The position numbers and the translations under genes are program-made. A stretch of 64,000 nucleotides of DNA from Candidatus Nitrosopumilus limneticus (GTDB lineage Archaea > Thermoproteota > Nitrososphaeria > Nitrososphaerales > Nitrosopumilaceae), in assembly GCA_022117465.1 (NCBI GenBank), contig JAHCGZ010000001.1, positions 62,001 through 126,000 of the forward strand, written 5' to 3'. The number at the start of each line of letters is the position of its first letter. Within the stretch, counting starts at the first letter, position 1. Positions 795 to 56,713 of the stretch are shown here, piece after piece. Below the pieces are notes generated by a model. That model saw nothing but the letters and a program-made list of their open reading frames with translations, did no database searches and had not been told where the DNA came from.

Positions 795-983
795 CTATTT
801 TGTTGCTGTTATGGTTAGTTTACCACTTAAGGAAATTGTACCTGTTGGAACTACTACATTGTCTTTCATAATCTTACCTGCCAACTCTAGATTGTGAAAA
901 TCATAAGTTATTGCAGCGTGTTTCTCTGTAAGTTTATCAAAGATTTCAGCAAGTAAATTTGCCCATTCTTGTTCTTCTGCCAT
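795..983 (-). CDS. small hypothetical protein, first gene of the minus-strand operon
   Basis: 62-aa ORF with TTAAATATG TATA-like sequence and TTGGCACTA element upstream. Confidence 0.6.
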   Translation of the reverse strand: MAEEQEWANLLAEIFDKLTEKHAAITYDFHNLELAGKIMKDNVVVPTGTISLSGKLTITATK

Positions 984-1032
984 TGTGAGATTTCTAGATT
1001 TGTCATATTTAACCCATGGAAAAAAATATTGA

Positions 1033-1041
1033 TAGTGCCAA
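1033..1041 (-). promoter_or_regulatory. TTGGCACTA element, 49 bp upstream of the 983 start
   Basis: tagtgccaa on + strand; TTAAATATG TATA-like box between. Confidence 0.7.
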
Positions 1042-1058
1042 AATCAGTGACTATTGCA

Positions 1059-1067
1059 TTACCACTA
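1059..1067 (+). promoter_or_regulatory. TTACCACTA variant element, 49 bp upstream of the B12-protein GTG start
   Basis: Two mismatches to TTGGCACTA but identical spacing; TTATATATC follows. Confidence 0.45.
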
Positions 1068-1116
1068 GAGAATATTATTAGCATTAGTTATATATCAACA
1101 ATAAAGAAATCGGTAT

Positions 1117-1971
1117 GTGGTATACATCAGAGCTAAAAAAGTTAAATCCGATCTATATCTCTATCTAGTCAAAAGTATATGGGATTCTAAAAAGAGTACA
1201 TCAAAACAAGAAATTATAAAATATCTAGGTAAAGCAGATAATGTAGTAAAAGATGATATTCCAGAGGAATTCAGAAATGATGCCAAAATTTTATCAGTTC
1301 TAGCATCCTACAATCCAAAGGATATTCAAAAGAGGGAGGATGCCACATTAAAATCAAAACAGCAATTATATAAAAAATTAACAGATGGAAATTTAGATGA
1401 ATGTATAAAAATTTACAAAAATTATATCGACGTATTTAATATCCCAGATTTCTTTGATAAAATCTTTAGACCAGTAATGGCAAAAATAGGAGAAGAGTGG
1501 TCAAACGGAAGATTATCTATTGCAACTGAACATGTTGCAAGTAATGTTGCCCAAACATTAGTAAAAATTATAGTAGAGCAAATATCAGGTGCAGGAAATA
1601 AAAAGAAAATAATGATATGTGTTCCAGTAGGAGAAGAGCATCATATTGGATGTGATGTTTTAGAATCATATCTAACAATAAAGGGATTCAAAGTTTTTAA
1701 TATGGGAACATCAATACCAGCAGAATCAATAATAGAATTCATAAATATGAAAAAACCAGATATCTTACTAATTTCAATAACAATCAATGACAACATATCA
1801 GCTGGACAGAGATTAGTAAAGAAAATCAGAGAGCATAGCAAAATTCCAATTTTAATTGGAGGATATGCAACACAAATTAAAAACCCTCCAAAATTTGAAG
1901 CAGAAGTAGTAGGTGATGCAAGTTTGGAAGAAATTCCAAAGATATTAAGAAAAATTGTATTACCTAATTAG
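1117..1971 (+). CDS. cobalamin (B12)-binding sensor-like protein with a transposase-N-terminus-like or HTH-like N domain
   Basis: Contains EEWSNGRLSIATEH (W-x9-EH), then E-x-H-x2-G (GEEHHIG), 41 residues, SIT, and GG (ILIGGYA): B12-binding signature. N-terminus MVYIRAKKVKSDLYLYLVKS...KQEIIKYLGKA resembles IS1634-type transposase N-termini. GTG start. Confidence 0.8.
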   Translation: MVYIRAKKVKSDLYLYLVKSIWDSKKSTSKQEIIKYLGKADNVVKDDIPEEFRNDAKILSVLASYNPKDIQKREDATLKSKQQLYKKLTDGNLDECIKIYKNYIDVFNIPDFFDKIFRPVMAKIGEEWSNGRLSIATEHVASNVAQTLVKIIVEQISGAGNKKKIMICVPVGEEHHIGCDVLESYLTIKGFKVFNMGTSIPAESIIEFINMKKPDILLISITINDNISAGQRLVKKIREHSKIPILIGGYATQIKNPPKFEAEVVGDASLEEIPKILRKIVLPN

Positions 1972-3325
1972 AATTTAAAAAAGATTCAATTTTTGGAACA
2001 CATAAAATGGAACTATGTGCGGCTGAATCTGTGCCTATTCCATAGCTAATTGTGGAATCACCTACAAAAAATAATCCACTAATTCCAGGAATCTCATGAG
2101 GCATTTTAGATTTCCAAACTTTACCAGGCTCCTTAACTACTGATTCAACTAATTTCCATGCCATGGCGCGTTCCCAAATCAATGATGAATCAAATTTTGG
2201 ATAAATTGAAGAAATTTCCTGTTTCATTTTACTTACGATATTTTTAATTTTTTCAGAATCCTCAGTTTCTGAAGGAAGGACAGGAGTTCCTGCAATAATC
2301 AAATGTTCACCAGGGGGAGAAACTGATGGAGTAATATTTGATATGAAAAAAATACCTTTAGTTACATAATTAGCACCTACTGGAAATACAACTTGACGAG
2401 TATCTAATTGAGAATTTAATGCAAAATGTACTTCAACAACTGAAGTCGTTTTATTTAATTTATCAATTTTTTGAACAAATTCTTTATCAATTATATTTTC
2501 TTCAAATAGTTGATTCAATGCAGTGTATGCAGGATAAGATATTACAACTGAATTTGTGGCAATAAGTTTTTCAGAATTTAAAGAATCAATAACAACGACT
2601 CCAGTTACTTTGGAATTTTCAATAATTATTTTTTTTACTGAGTGTTTTGTTTGAATATTACCATCTTTTTCTAAAATGAAATCAGCAAGAACATGACAAA
2701 TTGAGTCATACCCTCCATTATCAGGATATGCAAATTCACTTGTTCCACCCTTAAACGGGTTGGCTCTAATAATGGTTCTAGCAAACTCACCTAATGAGAT
2801 ATGATCTGCAGTGTCAGCAAATGCCAACATGCATACGGCTTCAAAAAATGCTTTTGTATCAGAATCCAAATTACTAGTAATTTTTGTCAATGGGACTTCA
2901 TCCCATAATTCAGTTTTTTCAATTGAAGAAAATGCTAATGGTAGTAATAACTTTAGAAGTCTTACTCTACTTTTAAACGGAATTAAAGATAATTTTAGTA
3001 AATCAATCATTCCCTTTGGATAAATATGAAATCCAGTGTCTGCATAAAATGCAATGTCATGAACCTTTGCAAGTTTTAATCTAGATTCAATTTGCAAATT
3101 CTTTAAAATTGTGAAAATTGCAGATTTTTTATAAAAAGGCATTATGTGAAAACCATTATCTAAAATGTGATTTTTGTATTCCATTGAAGTAGTTCGTCCA
3201 CCTAATTTTGCGGATTTTTCTAAGACCATTACTTTATGGCCTTTATTTACTAACATAGCACCAGCAGTTAAACCGCCAACACCTGCACCAATGATTATTG
3301 TAGGAAGAGCCACAAAAGAAATCAA
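1964..3325 (-). CDS. FAD-dependent oxidoreductase, phytoene desaturase/CrtI-like
   Basis: N-terminal IIIGAGVGGLTAGAMLVNKGHKVMVLEKSAKLGGRTTS dinucleotide-binding motif and C-terminal FVGDSTISYGIGTDSAAHSS. ORF start at 3325 is TTG; GTG at 3313 is an equally plausible start. Confidence 0.8.
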   Translation of the reverse strand: MISFVALPTIIIGAGVGGLTAGAMLVNKGHKVMVLEKSAKLGGRTTSMEYKNHILDNGFHIMPFYKKSAIFTILKNLQIESRLKLAKVHDIAFYADTGFHIYPKGMIDLLKLSLIPFKSRVRLLKLLLPLAFSSIEKTELWDEVPLTKITSNLDSDTKAFFEAVCMLAFADTADHISLGEFARTIIRANPFKGGTSEFAYPDNGGYDSICHVLADFILEKDGNIQTKHSVKKIIIENSKVTGVVVIDSLNSEKLIATNSVVISYPAYTALNQLFEENIIDKEFVQKIDKLNKTTSVVEVHFALNSQLDTRQVVFPVGANYVTKGIFFISNITPSVSPPGEHLIIAGTPVLPSETEDSEKIKNIVSKMKQEISSIYPKFDSSLIWERAMAWKLVESVVKEPGKVWKSKMPHEIPGISGLFFVGDSTISYGIGTDSAAHSSILCVPKIESFLNSN

Positions 3326-3361
3326 TTATTTTTCTATTTAATTGAGGCTAACTTTATTTTA

Positions 3362-3370
3362 TAGTGCTAA
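3362..3370 (-). promoter_or_regulatory. TTAGCACTA element upstream of the CrtI-like gene
   Basis: 48 bp from the GTG at 3313 (36 bp from the TTG at 3325); TTAAATAG at 3336-3343. Confidence 0.65.
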
Positions 3371-3379
3371 CTAAAAATA

Positions 3380-3820
3380 TTAGGATAATTTAGAATAAGA
3401 TTCAGCACAAATAATAAATTCAGACATTACAAAATTCATTCTTTTTAAAAGTAAAATTTTTAGAAATGGAATAAATTTTAAAAATCCATTTAGTTTCAAA
3501 TTTACCAAAATAGAAATGTCAGTCCCCGATGAATTTGAATTATAAGTTTCAAAAAAAGACGTACCTTTAACTGGACCAGTCAAAATAAACACTTTATGTA
3601 TATTAGGTCTAATGATTACATGTTTTGTTTTAATTTCTAAACGTCTACCTAAAAACTCAATAGATTCCAATACAATTTTTTCGTCAGATAAATCGCTAAT
3701 TACTTTTAAAGATTTAAAATATTTAGGCATAATTTTATGAAAGTTTTCAATATCTGTACTTAATTGAAAAATCACATCACGATCAAGATTACTTTTTTGA
3801 AGAAAGTTGTGTTCACTCAT
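3380..3820 (-). CDS. SRPBCC/START-like protein
   Basis: DRDVIFQLSTDIENFHKIMPKYFKSLKVI pattern typical of polyketide cyclase/SRPBCC folds. Confidence 0.5.
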   Translation of the reverse strand: MSEHNFLQKSNLDRDVIFQLSTDIENFHKIMPKYFKSLKVISDLSDEKIVLESIEFLGRRLEIKTKHVIIRPNIHKVFILTGPVKGTSFFETYNSNSSGTDISILVNLKLNGFLKFIPFLKILLLKRMNFVMSEFIICAESYSKLS

Positions 3821-4175
3821 GATATGAAATTAGTTTCAAATATTCCCATAAATTTGATTTTATTACATGCATCTCAGGATAAAACTTTTGAATTTCTAAA
3901 CATAAAATAGCTAAAGACCGCTTGACTGATTCTGTCATTATTGGATCAGTCATTGTAAATAATCTAATTGTTGTTTTATTTTTGTTAGTGATTATTTGAA
4001 TAAAAAATTCATGATGCGATTTATCAATGACGACAGTAGATAGTAATGCATTAGTTCCTCTTGTATCAATGTACAAATCATTAATTTTAATTAAAGGTGA
4101 TTTCTCAAAAATTGGTTTAAATAAAATTGAAAAATCAAAAAGATTTAGAGATTTATCTAATACTATATGAGACAT
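3813..4175 (-). CDS. hypothetical protein
   Basis: ORF overlapping the start of 3380-3820; ATG at 4175 preferred over the TTG at 4187. Confidence 0.6.
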   Translation of the reverse strand: MSHIVLDKSLNLFDFSILFKPIFEKSPLIKINDLYIDTRGTNALLSTVVIDKSHHEFFIQIITNKNKTTIRLFTMTDPIMTESVKRSLAILCLEIQKFYPEMHVIKSNLWEYLKLISYHE

Positions 4176-4224
4176 TATTTTTGTCAAAATTAATGGTATT
4201 AAAATAAAATAAAAAAAAAGCTAC

Positions 4225-4233
4225 TAGTGCTAA
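4225..4233 (-). promoter_or_regulatory. TTAGCACTA element, 49 bp upstream of ATG 4175
   Basis: tagtgctaa on + strand. Confidence 0.65.
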
Positions 4234-4250
4234 AAAAAGTTGAAAATCAC

Positions 4251-4259
4251 TAGTGCTAA
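4251..4259 (-). promoter_or_regulatory. second TTAGCACTA copy, 26 bp from the first
   Basis: Direct repeat of actagtgctaaaa. Confidence 0.55.
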
Positions 4260-4288
4260 AATATAAAATTATTTAATTTCTAGATCAA

Positions 4289-4297
4289 TTAGCACTA
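4289..4297 (+). promoter_or_regulatory. TTAGCACTA element, 48 bp upstream of tfb ATG
   Basis: ttagcactagatg; ttttaaataa box near -30. Confidence 0.7.
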
Positions 4298-4345
4298 GAT
4301 GAAAAATGTTCGATGTTTTAAATAAAATAATAACATAATGGGGTT

Positions 4346-5257
4346 ATGCAAGCAGAATTAATTCATCAGAAGAATTGTAGAAAAAACCATTTAATTACAG
4401 ATATGCATACAGGGGAGATTGCATGCTCTAGTTGTGGTGCTGTATCATTAGAACAAATATTTGATATGGGATATGAGAATTCTGCATCAAATGCAAATGA
4501 TTATCAAAACAATACACGCGTAGGAGCCAAGAGATCACTAAAGATGATCGATATGGGATTATCAACATTAATTGAATCCAATGACAAAGACGCTACAGGA
4601 AAATCATTATCAATTGAAAATAAAAGAATGTTTTATAGATTAAGAATGTGGGACAGAAATAGTCGTTCTGCAGTTACATCAAAATCATTTCAAAAAGCAT
4701 TTACATTATTAGATGCAATGGGTTCAAAACTAGGATTACCAGAATCAGTTGTAGAAGAAAGCGCTTATTTATTTAGAAAAGTTGCAGCTAGAAAAATTCT
4801 AGCAGGTAGATCAACTGCAGCTATGCTATCTGCAACAATTTATGCCACTTGTAGAATCACTGACACTCCAAGAACATTACAAGATATTTCAGATGCATCT
4901 AACATAAAGAAAAAAGTTTTGCAAAGAACATACAGGTATTTAGCAAAAGAGATGAATATTAATCCGGAAGCTTATACCCCATCTGAATTTGTCACAAGGA
5001 TAGCAAAAGGATTGAATCTTTCTGAAAAAACACAAAGGTTAGCATTTAAGATATTAGACTCGTGTGCAAAAAGACAAGTATCCACTAGTAAAAATCCCAT
5101 GGCTATGGCAGCAGCAGCCATTCACCTTGCAGCAACAATGAATTCTGAACGCATGTCACAACTCAAAATATCAAAAATTTCTGGCATAAGTGCAGTGACA
5201 ATCAGAGAAAGAAGAAAAGAGATACTAACCAAAATAGGAGATGTGTTAGTTGGGTAG
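4346..5257 (+). CDS. tfb: transcription initiation factor B (TFIIB homologue), divergent zinc ribbon
   Basis: N-terminal GEIACSSCGAVSLEQ half ribbon and two cyclin-fold repeats (AARKILAGRSTAAMLSATIYATCRI; KNPMAMAAAAIHLAATMN). Confidence 0.9.
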   Translation: MQAELIHQKNCRKNHLITDMHTGEIACSSCGAVSLEQIFDMGYENSASNANDYQNNTRVGAKRSLKMIDMGLSTLIESNDKDATGKSLSIENKRMFYRLRMWDRNSRSAVTSKSFQKAFTLLDAMGSKLGLPESVVEESAYLFRKVAARKILAGRSTAAMLSATIYATCRITDTPRTLQDISDASNIKKKVLQRTYRYLAKEMNINPEAYTPSEFVTRIAKGLNLSEKTQRLAFKILDSCAKRQVSTSKNPMAMAAAAIHLAATMNSERMSQLKISKISGISAVTIRERRKEILTKIGDVLVG

Positions 5258-5435
5258 AACTTGTAGAAATATCTGTTTGAGATATCAGGCGGATCCAGTA
5301 CCAAATAAAATTAGATACGAAATTGGGCAAAAACGATGCACATTTTGTGGTATTTTCATGAAAGACTGTGATACAAGATGTATCTGTTGTAAAGCTGTAC
5401 TAAGAACTAAACCAAGAAGTAAAAAGAAAGAATAA
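5250..5435 (+). CDS. small zinc-ribbon-like protein
   Basis: CTFCGIFMKDCDTRCICCKAVLR; overlaps the end of tfb. Confidence 0.6.
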   Translation: MGRTCRNICLRYQADPVPNKIRYEIGQKRCTFCGIFMKDCDTRCICCKAVLRTKPRSKKKE

Positions 5436-5456: not shown

Positions 5457-6140
5457 TTATTTTTTAAAGATTCTTTTTCTTAAAACAATTACAAATAACA
5501 ACGAAGGAATACCAATTAGCATAGAAATTGCAATAACGATTGAAACATAATCATTTAGAAATAATTTTGTATCTAACCAAGCTTTTGGAAGAATGGTAAA
5601 AAAATCAGCACCAGAAAAATCCTCTATGGTTCCAATAGCTAAACTATATTTTCCAGATTGATTTTTTTCATCCAATACTAGAATAAAGTATTGACCATCA
5701 GCGGGAATTATTGATTTAACTTCTTGCCTTTCCCAGTAAGTTACTTGTCCAAATGGTTCATAAAATTCATTTCCAGGATAATCACCCTCATATAGAAATT
5801 TTTGAATATTAGATTGAATGTCAGTAGATTTAGAATTTCCAGTAAAGATATCATCATTCATTAAAACTAATGAAGGAGAATAATTTTCAAGACCCTCAAG
5901 TTTAGGAATCACAATACTAGCATAAAATGAATCTCCTTTTTTGGCATCAAAGGTATAAAATTTGGTCTCACTAACGCCTAAATTTTCATAAATTGCCCAT
6001 GAAATTTTATGATCTGGTATAACTAATGCAGAATCATAATCTCTATGAGAATCATCATGACTAATTAATTTGTGTGCTTGTACAGTAGGAGATAATGAAA
6101 ATAAAATTAGAATTGAAAATAAAAATAAAATTGTTTTCAT
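5457..6140 (-). CDS. secreted protein with C-terminal transmembrane anchor
   Basis: Signal peptide MKTILFLFSILILFSLSPTVQA and C-terminal hydrophobic helix followed by RKRIFKK. Confidence 0.7.
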   Translation of the reverse strand: MKTILFLFSILILFSLSPTVQAHKLISHDDSHRDYDSALVIPDHKISWAIYENLGVSETKFYTFDAKKGDSFYASIVIPKLEGLENYSPSLVLMNDDIFTGNSKSTDIQSNIQKFLYEGDYPGNEFYEPFGQVTYWERQEVKSIIPADGQYFILVLDEKNQSGKYSLAIGTIEDFSGADFFTILPKAWLDTKLFLNDYVSIVIAISMLIGIPSLLFVIVLRKRIFKK

Positions 6141-6190: not shown

Positions 6191-6199
6191 TTAGCACTA
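6191..6199 (+). promoter_or_regulatory. TTAGCACTA element, 50 bp from the 6140 start (inverted relative to that gene)
   Basis: ttagcacta; GTTAAAATAC near -30 of the minus gene. Confidence 0.55.
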
Positions 6200-6267
6200 T
6201 TGAAATTAATGTAATTAATGATATTGAAAATAGATATTAAGATTCAATTGCTAAACAATGTAAAGAA

Positions 6268-53175: not shown

Positions 53176-53577
53176 TCAAAAGTTTTTAGATTCAACAAAT
53201 TCAACAATTGAAAGAATTTCTCCCATTTCTACAAGATGACCGTAACTTGTATTTTTTGCATTTTTCATAGGTTTGTTATCAACACTAATGAAAAGCATGT
53301 TACCGTCATAAAGTGGGATAGTAATTCTTTTAATTTTTGCATAAGACGTAATTGAGTACATACCATCACCAGTGTATTTGGAAGCAGAAGCATAAGTGTC
53401 CCATTCTTTTCTAGAACTAGACATAGTAGCTTTAGTTTTTTCTATAGGAACAATATTTGAAACCCCATTTCTTTGACTATTCCAAAGTAACTGACCACTT
53501 GCATCAGATACAGCAGCAAACCTTACAGATTCATTAAAATCCATTATCATGTTCAAAAGTTGTTCATATTTGTCCAT
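53176..53577 (-). CDS. Thaumarchaeal conserved protein, paralogue of 53653-54060
   Basis: MDKYEQLLNMIMDFNESVRFAAVSDASGQLLWNS...SYGHLVEMGEILSIVEFVES. Confidence 0.7.
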   Translation of the reverse strand: MDKYEQLLNMIMDFNESVRFAAVSDASGQLLWNSQRNGVSNIVPIEKTKATMSSSRKEWDTYASASKYTGDGMYSITSYAKIKRITIPLYDGNMLFISVDNKPMKNAKNTSYGHLVEMGEILSIVEFVESKNF

Positions 53578-53627
53578 TAACTGTTCAGCGAAATTTTACT
53601 TAATATAATATTCGAAATTTAAAATTC

Positions 53628-53636
53628 TAGTGCCAA
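53628..53636 (-). promoter_or_regulatory. TTGGCACTA element, 50 bp upstream of 53577 start
   Basis: tagtgccaa on + strand; TATTATATTA near -30. Confidence 0.7.
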
Positions 53637-53652
53637 ATTATTTGTAAAATAA

Positions 53653-54060
53653 TTATTCTTCAAAAGTATTAACAAAATCAACAATAGACATTATTTTACC
53701 CATTTCGACATAGCGACCGTAACTTTTTGTTTTTGTCTTTTGGAGAGGAGTATTATCAACATATATCATTAGTAAATGAAATGCATCTAATGGAACAGTG
53801 ACTTGTTTAATTTTTGAAAAAGATGCGATATGATACATTGCTCGACCAAGATCATCAGAATCTTCAATTTTACAGCGTTGTATCCAGTCAGAAGATTCAC
53901 GAGCTAGAGTTTTTTTAATTTCAGGTAAAGGTACTTGAATTTTTGACTCATCACGAATTGTATTCCATAAAATATTTCCAGTGGTGTCACTAATAGCTGT
54001 GAATAAAATTGATTGATCATAATCCATCAACATATGAAGAAGTTTCTCATATCGTGACAT
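53653..54060 (-). CDS. Thaumarchaeal conserved protein, paralogue of 53176-53577
   Basis: MSRYEKLLHMLMDYDQSILFTAISDTTGNILWNT...SYGRYVEMGKIMSIVDFVNT. Confidence 0.7.
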   Translation of the reverse strand: MSRYEKLLHMLMDYDQSILFTAISDTTGNILWNTIRDESKIQVPLPEIKKTLARESSDWIQRCKIEDSDDLGRAMYHIASFSKIKQVTVPLDAFHLLMIYVDNTPLQKTKTKSYGRYVEMGKIMSIVDFVNTFEE

Positions 54061-54113
54061 ATTGTAAATTAAATATTTCTAGAATAAAAACAATTGTTTA
54101 GAGAGAGAAATAA

Positions 54114-54122
54114 TTGGCACTA
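54114..54122 (+). promoter_or_regulatory. TTGGCACTA element, 49 bp upstream of DICT1-photolyase genes
   Basis: taattggcactagaatt; TTTATAT at -30 to -24. Confidence 0.75.
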
Positions 54123-54171
54123 GAATTATCAATAAAATTAATTTATATCTGATTTTATTATTAAAAATGCT

Positions 54172-54726
54172 ATGAAAAACCCATATGAGGATTTTGTACA
54201 TCAAGTATGGGAAGAATTTCCACAATTAGCTGAGTGGCATAATTTAGATAATGAAATTCTACCAATATGGAAATTAGAACAATTCATTGAAGTAGGTTAC
54301 CATAATTTTGATGCAGAGAGAAAACCACTGTATCATCTAAGTAAAATAATTGAAAAATATGCTCAAGAAAATAAACAGCCATTACTAGCAACATTTGAAA
54401 AAATTGCAAAATTTTCATATGTAAAAGAGAGATATCAAGAAATGGTAAAAGATATGCCTAAAGTATGGATAATTGCAGATTTTGACGACGAGGTAATACC
54501 AACTGATGTCATACTGCCAAATTCAGAATTTCTAAGTTGTAGCAATACAAACTTGGCAAATGTTTGGTCAGTATTTACCAGAGGACCCTATGGACCATTT
54601 GGTCTAATAGCTGAAGAATACAAAGATGGAAAATTTAGAGGATTTTTTACACTTAATTCCAATGTATGCAGATATGCTCTAAATGTAATGGGTAATACAC
54701 TAGGAGCTAAATTCGATATCCAATAA
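54172..54726 (+). CDS. DICT-like sensory domain protein (paralogue 1)
   Basis: PLLATFEKIAKFSYVKERYQEM...VWIIADF...VWSVFTRGPYGPFGLIAEEYKDGKFRGFFTLN; pattern recalled from DICT domains. Confidence 0.6.
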   Translation: MKNPYEDFVHQVWEEFPQLAEWHNLDNEILPIWKLEQFIEVGYHNFDAERKPLYHLSKIIEKYAQENKQPLLATFEKIAKFSYVKERYQEMVKDMPKVWIIADFDDEVIPTDVILPNSEFLSCSNTNLANVWSVFTRGPYGPFGLIAEEYKDGKFRGFFTLNSNVCRYALNVMGNTLGAKFDIQ

Positions 54727-54747
54727 TATCAAAAATAAAAATAACCA

Positions 54748-56094
54748 ATGTTTAAAAAATCACTATTCATTTTTCGTAGAGATTTAAGATTAGAAGATAA
54801 TATAGGATTAATACAGTCTTTACAAAATTCTGAAGAAGTAATTCCTTGTTTTATCTATGATGAAAATTTGATAAGAAATTTTAAAGATTCAGAATTTAGA
54901 TGGAATTTTCTTAACGAATCATTATCGGAATTAGATACAGAATTAATTAAAAAAGGAAGTAAATTGCAAATATTAGAAGGAACCCCAGAAAAAATAACAG
55001 ATAGGATAATTAAAAAAATTAACATAAATGCAGTGTTTCTAAATACAGATTTTACTAGTTATTCACGAAAACGAGACGAACAAATATACCAGAATTGTAA
55101 AAAAAATAAAATAGAATTTCACAGTACATTAGATTTTTTACTTCATAATCCGAATGAAATAAAAACAAATGAAGGTTCACCATATACCATTTATTCATTT
55201 TTTTATAATAAAGCAAAACAGATACCAATTAGAAAAATATTTAAAAATAATAATAAAAATTATTCAAAAGAGATTATTTCAGAGGATAAAATTAAAAAAA
55301 GCAAAGTAAAAAATCATGAGATCATAGGAGGGCGTAAAGAAGGCTTGAAGATTTTAAAAAACTTAGACAAATTCAAAAATTATGACAAAACAAGAGATTT
55401 CCCAGGATTAAATCAAACAACAATGCTTTCAGCACATAACAAATTTGGAACAATTTCAATTAGAGAAGTTCACGACCAAATTAAACAAGTTTTAGGCTCA
55501 GATCATACAATAATGGGAGAAATATACTGGAGAGAATTTTTTAGCTACATATTATTTCATTTCCCACATACTCAAAAAACATCATTTAGACAAAAATTCC
55601 AAAAAATTCCATGGTCAAAATCTACTGAATCTTTTAAAATATGGTGTGAAGGAAAAACCGGATTTCCGATTGTGGATGCAGGAATGAGGCAATTAAATAA
55701 AACAGGATTCATGCATAATAGAGTAAGAATGATCGTAGCATCATTTCTAACAAAGGATCTACATATTGATTGGAGATTAGGAGAAAAATATTTTGGGCAA
55801 AAACTAATCGATTATGATCCTGCAGTCAATTCAGGTAATTGGCAGTGGGCTGCATCTACAGGATGTGATTCAGTACCATATTTTCGAATTTTTAACCCAT
55901 GGAGACAACAAGAAAGATTTGATTTGAATTGTGATTATATTAAAAAATGGGTTCCAGAATTAGAAAAAACTGAATCAAAAATAATTCATAATTTATGGAA
56001 AGAATTTCCAAAAAATTTAGAATATCCAAAACCAATGTTAATTCATAAAATTGAAGCAGAAAAAACAAAAATAATTTTTAAATCTCAAAAATAA
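54748..56094 (+). CDS. phrB: class I deoxyribodipyrimidine photolyase / cryptochrome family
   Basis: FIFRRDLRLEDNIGL, GRKEGLKIL, WREFFSYILFHFP, GKTGFPIVDAGMRQLNKTGFMHNRVRMIVASFLTKDLHIDWR, DYDPAVNSGNWQWAASTGCD. Confidence 0.95.
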   Translation: MFKKSLFIFRRDLRLEDNIGLIQSLQNSEEVIPCFIYDENLIRNFKDSEFRWNFLNESLSELDTELIKKGSKLQILEGTPEKITDRIIKKININAVFLNTDFTSYSRKRDEQIYQNCKKNKIEFHSTLDFLLHNPNEIKTNEGSPYTIYSFFYNKAKQIPIRKIFKNNNKNYSKEIISEDKIKKSKVKNHEIIGGRKEGLKILKNLDKFKNYDKTRDFPGLNQTTMLSAHNKFGTISIREVHDQIKQVLGSDHTIMGEIYWREFFSYILFHFPHTQKTSFRQKFQKIPWSKSTESFKIWCEGKTGFPIVDAGMRQLNKTGFMHNRVRMIVASFLTKDLHIDWRLGEKYFGQKLIDYDPAVNSGNWQWAASTGCDSVPYFRIFNPWRQQERFDLNCDYIKKWVPELEKTESKIIHNLWKEFPKNLEYPKPMLIHKIEAEKTKIIFKSQK

Positions 56095-56103
56095 AAAAAA
56101 TAA

Positions 56104-56112
56104 TTGGCACTA
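56104..56112 (+). promoter_or_regulatory. TTGGCACTA element, 49 bp upstream of DICT2
   Basis: taattggcactattt; TTATATA near -28. Confidence 0.75.
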
Positions 56113-56161
56113 TTTAAATAAATTATTACTGAATTATATACTGATAAAAAATACTCAACGC

Positions 56162-56713
56162 ATGACACAACATTTTATGAGTTTTATTGATGACATATGG
56201 AATAAATTTCCAACATTTAAAGAAATAAAAAATACTGATCTTACAAATCATAATTTATTATGGACACTTGATGAATATAGAAATGCAAATTATGTAAATT
56301 TTCAAACAGGTAAAAAAGAACTTTACAGATTAAGCATTTTAATAGAAAATTATGCAGTCGAGCATGACACTACATTATTGGCAACTTTTGAAACTGAAGC
56401 AAGATACAAGTATGTAGAAGAAAGATACACGGAAATTCTTGATAAAATTTCAAAGGCATGGATAATTGGTAATTTCAATAATCAATTTTTACATCAACGT
56501 CCTCCTGCATCTGCAGAAATAGTTAGTTGTGATGGAACAAATATTTCTCCAATGTGGATTGTGATTACAAAAGGTGAAAAAGGACCATTTGGATTAGTAG
56601 CTGAAGATCTTGGAGATAGTGATTACAGAGGATTTTTTACATCAAATGTGGACATTCTAGAAAAAGTAATTGAAGATATCAATGAACAATTAAAAATTAA
56701 AATTGTAATATAG
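56162..56713 (+). CDS. DICT-like sensory domain protein (paralogue 2)
   Basis: TLLATFETEARYKYVEERYTEI...AWIIGNF...MWIVITKGEKGPFGLVAEDLGDSDYRGFFTSN. Confidence 0.6.
   Translation: MTQHFMSFIDDIWNKFPTFKEIKNTDLTNHNLLWTLDEYRNANYVNFQTGKKELYRLSILIENYAVEHDTTLLATFETEARYKYVEERYTEILDKISKAWIIGNFNNQFLHQRPPASAEIVSCDGTNISPMWIVITKGEKGPFGLVAEDLGDSDYRGFFTSNVDILEKVIEDINEQLKIKIVI

Follow-up and report, generated by a model that had tools for sequence, protein, structure and literature searches.

A conserved promoter box and a candidate CarH-like B12-dependent regulator of a light-protection regulon, including a TFB paralogue, in ammonia-oxidising archaea

Known B12-dependent light regulators and the archaeal candidate

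CarH and the class I LitR proteins are bacterial regulators that combine a MerR domain with a four-helix and a Rossmann cobalamin domain. The motif Wx9EH together with the cobalamin motif defines CarH homologues, which have been described from bacteria (PMC8156234), and bacterial light regulons of the LitR/CarH type contain photolyase and oxidoreductase genes (PMC9758184). In the LitR-LitS system of Streptomyces, a B12 regulator has a basal specificity factor, the ECF sigma factor LitS, as its target, with carotenoid genes downstream (PMC12705666). Photocobilins and AerR are B12 photosensors that lack MerR. In the open-access literature we found no earlier description of an archaeal sensor, operator or circuit of the kind considered here, and no report on how ammonia oxidisers sense light or on the purpose of individual TFBs. 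Photolyases are known in surface ammonia oxidisers (PMC10232715).

We analysed a stretch of 64,000 nucleotides from Candidatus Nitrosopumilus limneticus (the window; Table 1). The product of gene 1117-1971 contains B12-binding_2 (four-helix) and B12-binding (Rossmann) domains, as CarH and class I LitR do. Wx9EH (W128, E138, H139) is present in 49 of 49 homologues, and the cobalamin motif ExHx2G-x41-SxT/V-x22-27-GG appears as E173xH175xxG178, S220xT222 and G248G249; both motifs are invariant in the homologues except for one G178D. The His after the Trp, a cobalt ligand in light-exposed Thermus CarH, is absent. In a Foldseek search with the predicted fold, photocobilins and CarH came first, with the match limited to the two B12 subdomains; overall, the structures superpose poorly (TM about 0.36, rmsd 13). 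AerR was among the PDB sequence matches. The partner domains of photocobilins and AerR differ from the one found here, and the archaeal protein is clearly tied to a promoter element and a regulon.

In contrast to its bacterial counterparts, the protein has no MerR domain: Pfam found only the two B12 domains and nothing credible in residues 1-68, and no known DNA-binding domain matched the N-terminus credibly in Pfam or PHROGs. The predicted model (mean pLDDT 87; pTM 0.46, with the domain arrangement unsure) places three strands there, forming a domain that Pfam does not recognise and that probably binds DNA. This domain may resemble transposase N-termini. The NCBIfam CarH equivalog NF052513 gave 53.9 bits against a cut-off of 400, and covered residues 81-229 only. 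The operator differs as well. That of CarH consists of tandem 11-bp nAnnTnnACAn repeats at the -35 element, whereas the box described here, TTAGCACTAG, does not resemble nAnnTnnACAn and occurs in pairs before the TATA box. Because neither the MerR domain nor the CarH-type operator is present, we do not assign the protein to the CarH/LitR family; we infer that it works like CarH. A paralogue on contig 2 of the same genome (L115, 4887-5747(-)) has a similar N-terminus and the lower-ligand His motif, without Wx9EH, an arrangement beside the B12 protein that is reminiscent of CarA beside CarH.

As in the LitR-LitS system, a basal specificity factor is among the predicted targets. Here it is a TFB (TFIIB family) in place of a sigma factor, and other genes carry a box of their own, so their control does not require the TFB. 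The tfb product has a zinc ribbon and two TFIIB repeats; PF00382 matched in two stretches (E 9.1e-36), with the zinc ribbon below its curated cut-off and NF001658 below its own. There are four TFB matches in the genome, and tfb is one of several paralogues, as in the expanded TFB families of ammonia-oxidising archaea (PMC7554672). That paper leaves the control of individual TFBs open, whereas here one paralogue receives a predicted regulator and signal.

Three boxes between divergent genes and their conservation

A preliminary description of this DNA reported three boxes ahead of tfb, two direct copies 26 bp apart and one inverted, and their positions agree exactly: ACTAGTGCTAAAA occurs without mismatch at 4223-4235 and 4249-4261, and the inverted copy AATTAGCACTAGA at 4287-4299. 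The start-proximal boxes lie 48 nt from the ATG of the 4175(-) gene and 47 nt from that of tfb, within one of the 49 and 48 bp given previously. If the window is modelled as a first-order Markov chain, the 8-mer TAGTGCTA is expected 1.4 times per 64 kb, counting either strand, and three copies within 75 bp have a chance probability of about 2e-6 per window. The three boxes are real and not due to chance, for which conservation is stronger evidence than this calculation.

Table 1. Boxes, promoter elements and genes of the proposed regulon in the window.
Feature	Position	Strand	Remark
62-aa conserved protein	795..983	-	regulon member; 417-794 gene next
Box 1 (TTGGCACTAT) of divergent 795-983(-) gene	1032..1041	-	
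Box 1 (TTACCACTAG) of B12 gene	1059..1068	+	
Box 2 (TTAGCATTAG) of B12 gene	1078..1087	+	directly before TATA box TTATATA
B12-binding protein	1117..1971	+	proposed light sensor/regulator; about 3 kb from tfb boxes
FAD-dependent carotenoid-desaturase-like amine oxidoreductase	1964..3325	-	regulon member
Box 1 (TTAGCACTAT) of desaturase-like gene	3361..3370	-	
146-aa conserved protein, unknown function	3380..3820	-	probably in operon with 120-aa gene
120-aa conserved protein, unknown function	3813..4175	-	regulon member
Probable TATA box (TTTTAATA) of 4175(-) gene	4197..4204	-	
Box 1 (TTAGCACTAG), promoter of 3813-4175(-) gene	4224..4233	-	
Second upstream box (TTAGCACTAG)	4250..4259	-	26 bp further up; CTAGTGGTAA here in relatives
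Box 1 (TTAGCACTAG) of tfb promoter	4289..4298	+	
Probable TATA box of tfb (TTTAAATA)	4317..4324	+	nearly invariant in relatives
tfb, TFB paralogue with TFIIB repeats, 303 aa	4346..5257	+	regulon member
Box (TTAGCACTAT) between 5457-6140(-) gene and 6268(+) PPOX-like gene	6191..6200	+	recurs in relatives
Box 1 (TTGGCACTAG) of 53176-53577(-) 133-aa gene	53627..53636	-	
Box 1 (TTGGCACTAG) of 54172(+) gene	54114..54123	+	photolyase next
DNA photolyase	54748..56094	+	second gene of probable box-controlled unit 54172-56094
Box 1 (TTGGCACTAT) of 56162(+) 183-aa gene	56104..56113	+	

Absence of the sites from orthologous tfb promoters had been named as the observation that would speak against them; the comparison was run, and the boxes are conserved in relatives. 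In about ten close relatives, CTAGTGCTAA/CTAGTGGTAA/TAGTGCCAA and TTAGCACTAG/TTACCACTAG stand at corresponding places before the orthologous tfb while the spacers have diverged. These copies are often one-base variants (CTAGTGGTAA, TAGTGCCAA, TTACCACTAG), and the tfb TATA box TTTTAAATAAAAT is nearly invariant. Note that in the tfb-region alignment the middle box is off by one column, which makes its column identities there meaningless. More distant Nitrosopumilus keep CTAGTGCCAA/CTAGTGCTAA and TTAGCACTAG, with one or two boxes recurring. In other genera a box precedes tfb or a short leader or ORF ahead of it (G036, G022, G039), or lies within 59 bp of tfb in the opposite orientation (G019).

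The earlier suggestion that the boxes control a TFB paralogue is supported by the place that the box keeps ahead of tfb in relatives and by its vicinity to tfb in other genera. That suggestion was too narrow, since the two start-proximal copies belong to different promoters of one larger regulon, which includes the B12 gene, the desaturase, the photolyase and others. Cooperative binding at multiple boxes, likewise proposed earlier, is plausible. The usual same-strand pair in these promoters (box 1, followed by a weaker box 2 that adjoins the TATA box) is 18-19 bp apart, compared to 26 bp at the tfb locus.

A 61-aa cysteine-rich (zinc-ribbon-like) protein encoded after tfb (window 5250-5435) is conserved in relatives; some genomes have a small ORF ahead of tfb in its stead. 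An SRPBCC-like assignment of the 120-aa and 146-aa proteins found no support in Pfam.

Promoter anatomy, regulon content and co-occurrence with the B12 gene

In regulon genes of the Nitrosopumilaceae, TTAGCACTAG lies 47-51 bp ahead of the start codon and some 20 bp upstream of the TATA box. Their promoters follow one pattern: TTAGCACTAG, a gap of 8-9 bp, a second and weaker copy adjoining the TATA box, TTAAATA, about 25 bp and the start codon, the last distance suggesting leaderless transcripts. The consensus of the paired boxes is (A/T)NTTAGCACTA(G/T). For boxes oriented toward their gene (33 sites), the distance to the start codon peaks sharply at 48-51 bp. Matrix matches at 45-51 bp were found at the regulon loci for 49 of 80 B12 genes, 32 of 43 desaturase genes, 39 of 61 genes of the PSW protein, 15 of 21 62-aa genes, 17 of 35 120-aa genes and 17 of 46 tfb genes. 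Among the 383 remaining genes at these loci only 14 had such a match, and some of these 14 could be regulon members that escaped recognition. Across the organism's own genome (1.19 Mb, TTRSCACTAK allowed) there are 8 box promoters, 7 of them inside the window, versus 1 for the reversed control.

In the neighbourhoods and remote sites examined in ammonia-oxidising archaea, the box precedes the same gene families: the B12-binding protein, the desaturase-like FAD enzyme, the 120-aa/146-aa pair, the 62-aa protein, a secreted PSWIKNNAGWW protein divergent from DUF1722, photolyase-linked genes, a pyrimidine-dimer glycosylase (in relatives), a UbiX-like flavoprotein and the TFB. Pfam confirms photolyase, Pyr_excise and DUF1722 among them. 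With the desaturase-like enzyme, these tie the regulon to light protection, and the presence of carotenoid-type and photolyase genes is shared with CarH and class I LitR, as is a box before the regulator's own gene. A matrix scan of the window added, at regulon distance, the photolyase unit and the genes with starts at 56162 and 53577.

A second box cluster surrounds the photolyase (window 53176-56713), comprising the 133-aa gene, a 184-aa gene with the photolyase, and the 183-aa gene, each unit with TTGGCACTA(G/T) 48-49 bp before the start. The eighth box promoter of the genome lies on contig 2 (L288, about 1555-1590(-)) before a 121-aa protein of unknown family, and a second box there points the opposite way, toward a 189-aa gene resembling the photolyase-linked 183-184-aa family.

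Box promoters co-occur with the B12 gene. In a sample of 61 Nitrosopumilaceae genomes, the 23 with the B12 gene contained 86 composite promoters versus 14 reversed-control matches, and the 38 without it 11 versus 33; kinship among the genomes means that P values overstate independence, and the association is to be read as strong, not as independent. The contrast holds inside genera (G000, G046 and G059, with the B12 gene, versus G011 and G030; G032 and G048 versus G014), and another within-genus comparison gave six matches in G035 versus two in G018 and none in G051. The 10-mer CTAGTGCTAA separates the genomes less well than the composite promoter (114 versus 22 with the B12 gene, 81 versus 57 without). 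One genome, G041 (L101), runs counter to the rule: this TFB and four box promoters are present, and the B12 gene was not detected in the 120-contig assembly. This reflects either an assembly gap or another box-binding factor.

The B12 gene itself is preceded by the box in the Nitrosopumilaceae and, often by a pair of boxes, in further families of their class. At four loci of Nitrososphaeria outside the marine family (L276, L278, L283, L287), the neighbours of the box are B12, desaturase-like or photolyase genes, and some of these loci have it paired ahead of the TATA box. Thus, the system is probably older than the marine family.

Proposed mechanism, alternatives and significance

As established from the genome sequences, the anatomy and fixed position of the box, its conservation, the regulon content, the signature motifs and the co-occurrence point to a quite probable reading: the boxes serve as operators for an archaeal CarH-like, B12-dependent light-sensing regulator (1117-1971) that controls a light/UV-protection regulon including the TFB. 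The protein would bind the box, sense light and act as a repressor. In the dark, the AdoCbl-bound form on box 1, and on box 2 where present, would shut the promoter by hindering TFB/TBP. In the light, AdoCbl would be cleaved and the regulon released, including the carotenoid-type desaturase, the photolyase, the pyrimidine-dimer glycosylase in relatives, the B12 gene itself and the TFB paralogue. The TFB could widen the response, as the sigma factor LitS does for LitR in Streptomyces; since the other genes carry their own boxes, it would add to the response and not carry it.

The sign of control could be the opposite. In an activator version of the main reading, which draws on the same confidence and which we entertain tentatively, the B12 protein, or the form of it exposed to light, would sit at box 1 and bring in TBP/TFB or RNA polymerase. 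In many genes and species the box-to-TATA distance hardly varies, also at promoters such as that of tfb in which box 2 has decayed, and repressor sites usually allow more variation in spacing. However, box 2, where there is one, lies against the TATA box in the BRE position, a placement in keeping with occlusion, and CarH itself is a dark repressor (PMC8156234). It is unlikely that the boxes bind some other regulator sharing habitat or regulon with the B12 protein, such as an oxidative or UV stress sensor. The genome G041 would fit such a factor, but within genera the number of boxes goes with the presence of the B12 gene, and that gene has the box in front of it in different families.

We consider it improbable that the box is a special BRE-like promoter element read by the TFB paralogue acting like a sigma factor. 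The TFB is linked, its own promoter has a box, and box 2 occupies the BRE position; yet box promoters are equally frequent in the B12-positive genomes G025, G032 and G048, for which the search gave no close orthologue of the TFB, the B12 gene of other families has a box in front of it, and box 1 is too far upstream of the TATA box for a BRE. As the main idea, the TFB as box reader was dropped since boxes are kept where the TFB is missing. That the boxes are mere chance repeats of AT-rich intergenic DNA is vanishingly improbable. The bare 8-mer is not enriched genome-wide (33 versus 31 for the reversed control), and enrichment appears only by position and context; against chance stand the position conserved across genera, the fixed distance and the regulon specificity.

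Returning to the B12 regulator, we find it fairly likely that ammonia-oxidising archaea possess their own distinct class of B12 photoreceptor transcription factor, in which a CarH-type sensor is joined to a new DNA-binding domain and light-switches a DNA-repair and carotenoid regulon together with a dedicated general transcription factor. Light shapes the distribution of ammonia oxidisers in lakes and in the ocean, and the locus offers a concrete candidate sensor, operator and set of targets for an archaeal light response. If true, this would extend B12 photoreceptor regulators to the Archaea, with a different DNA-binding part.
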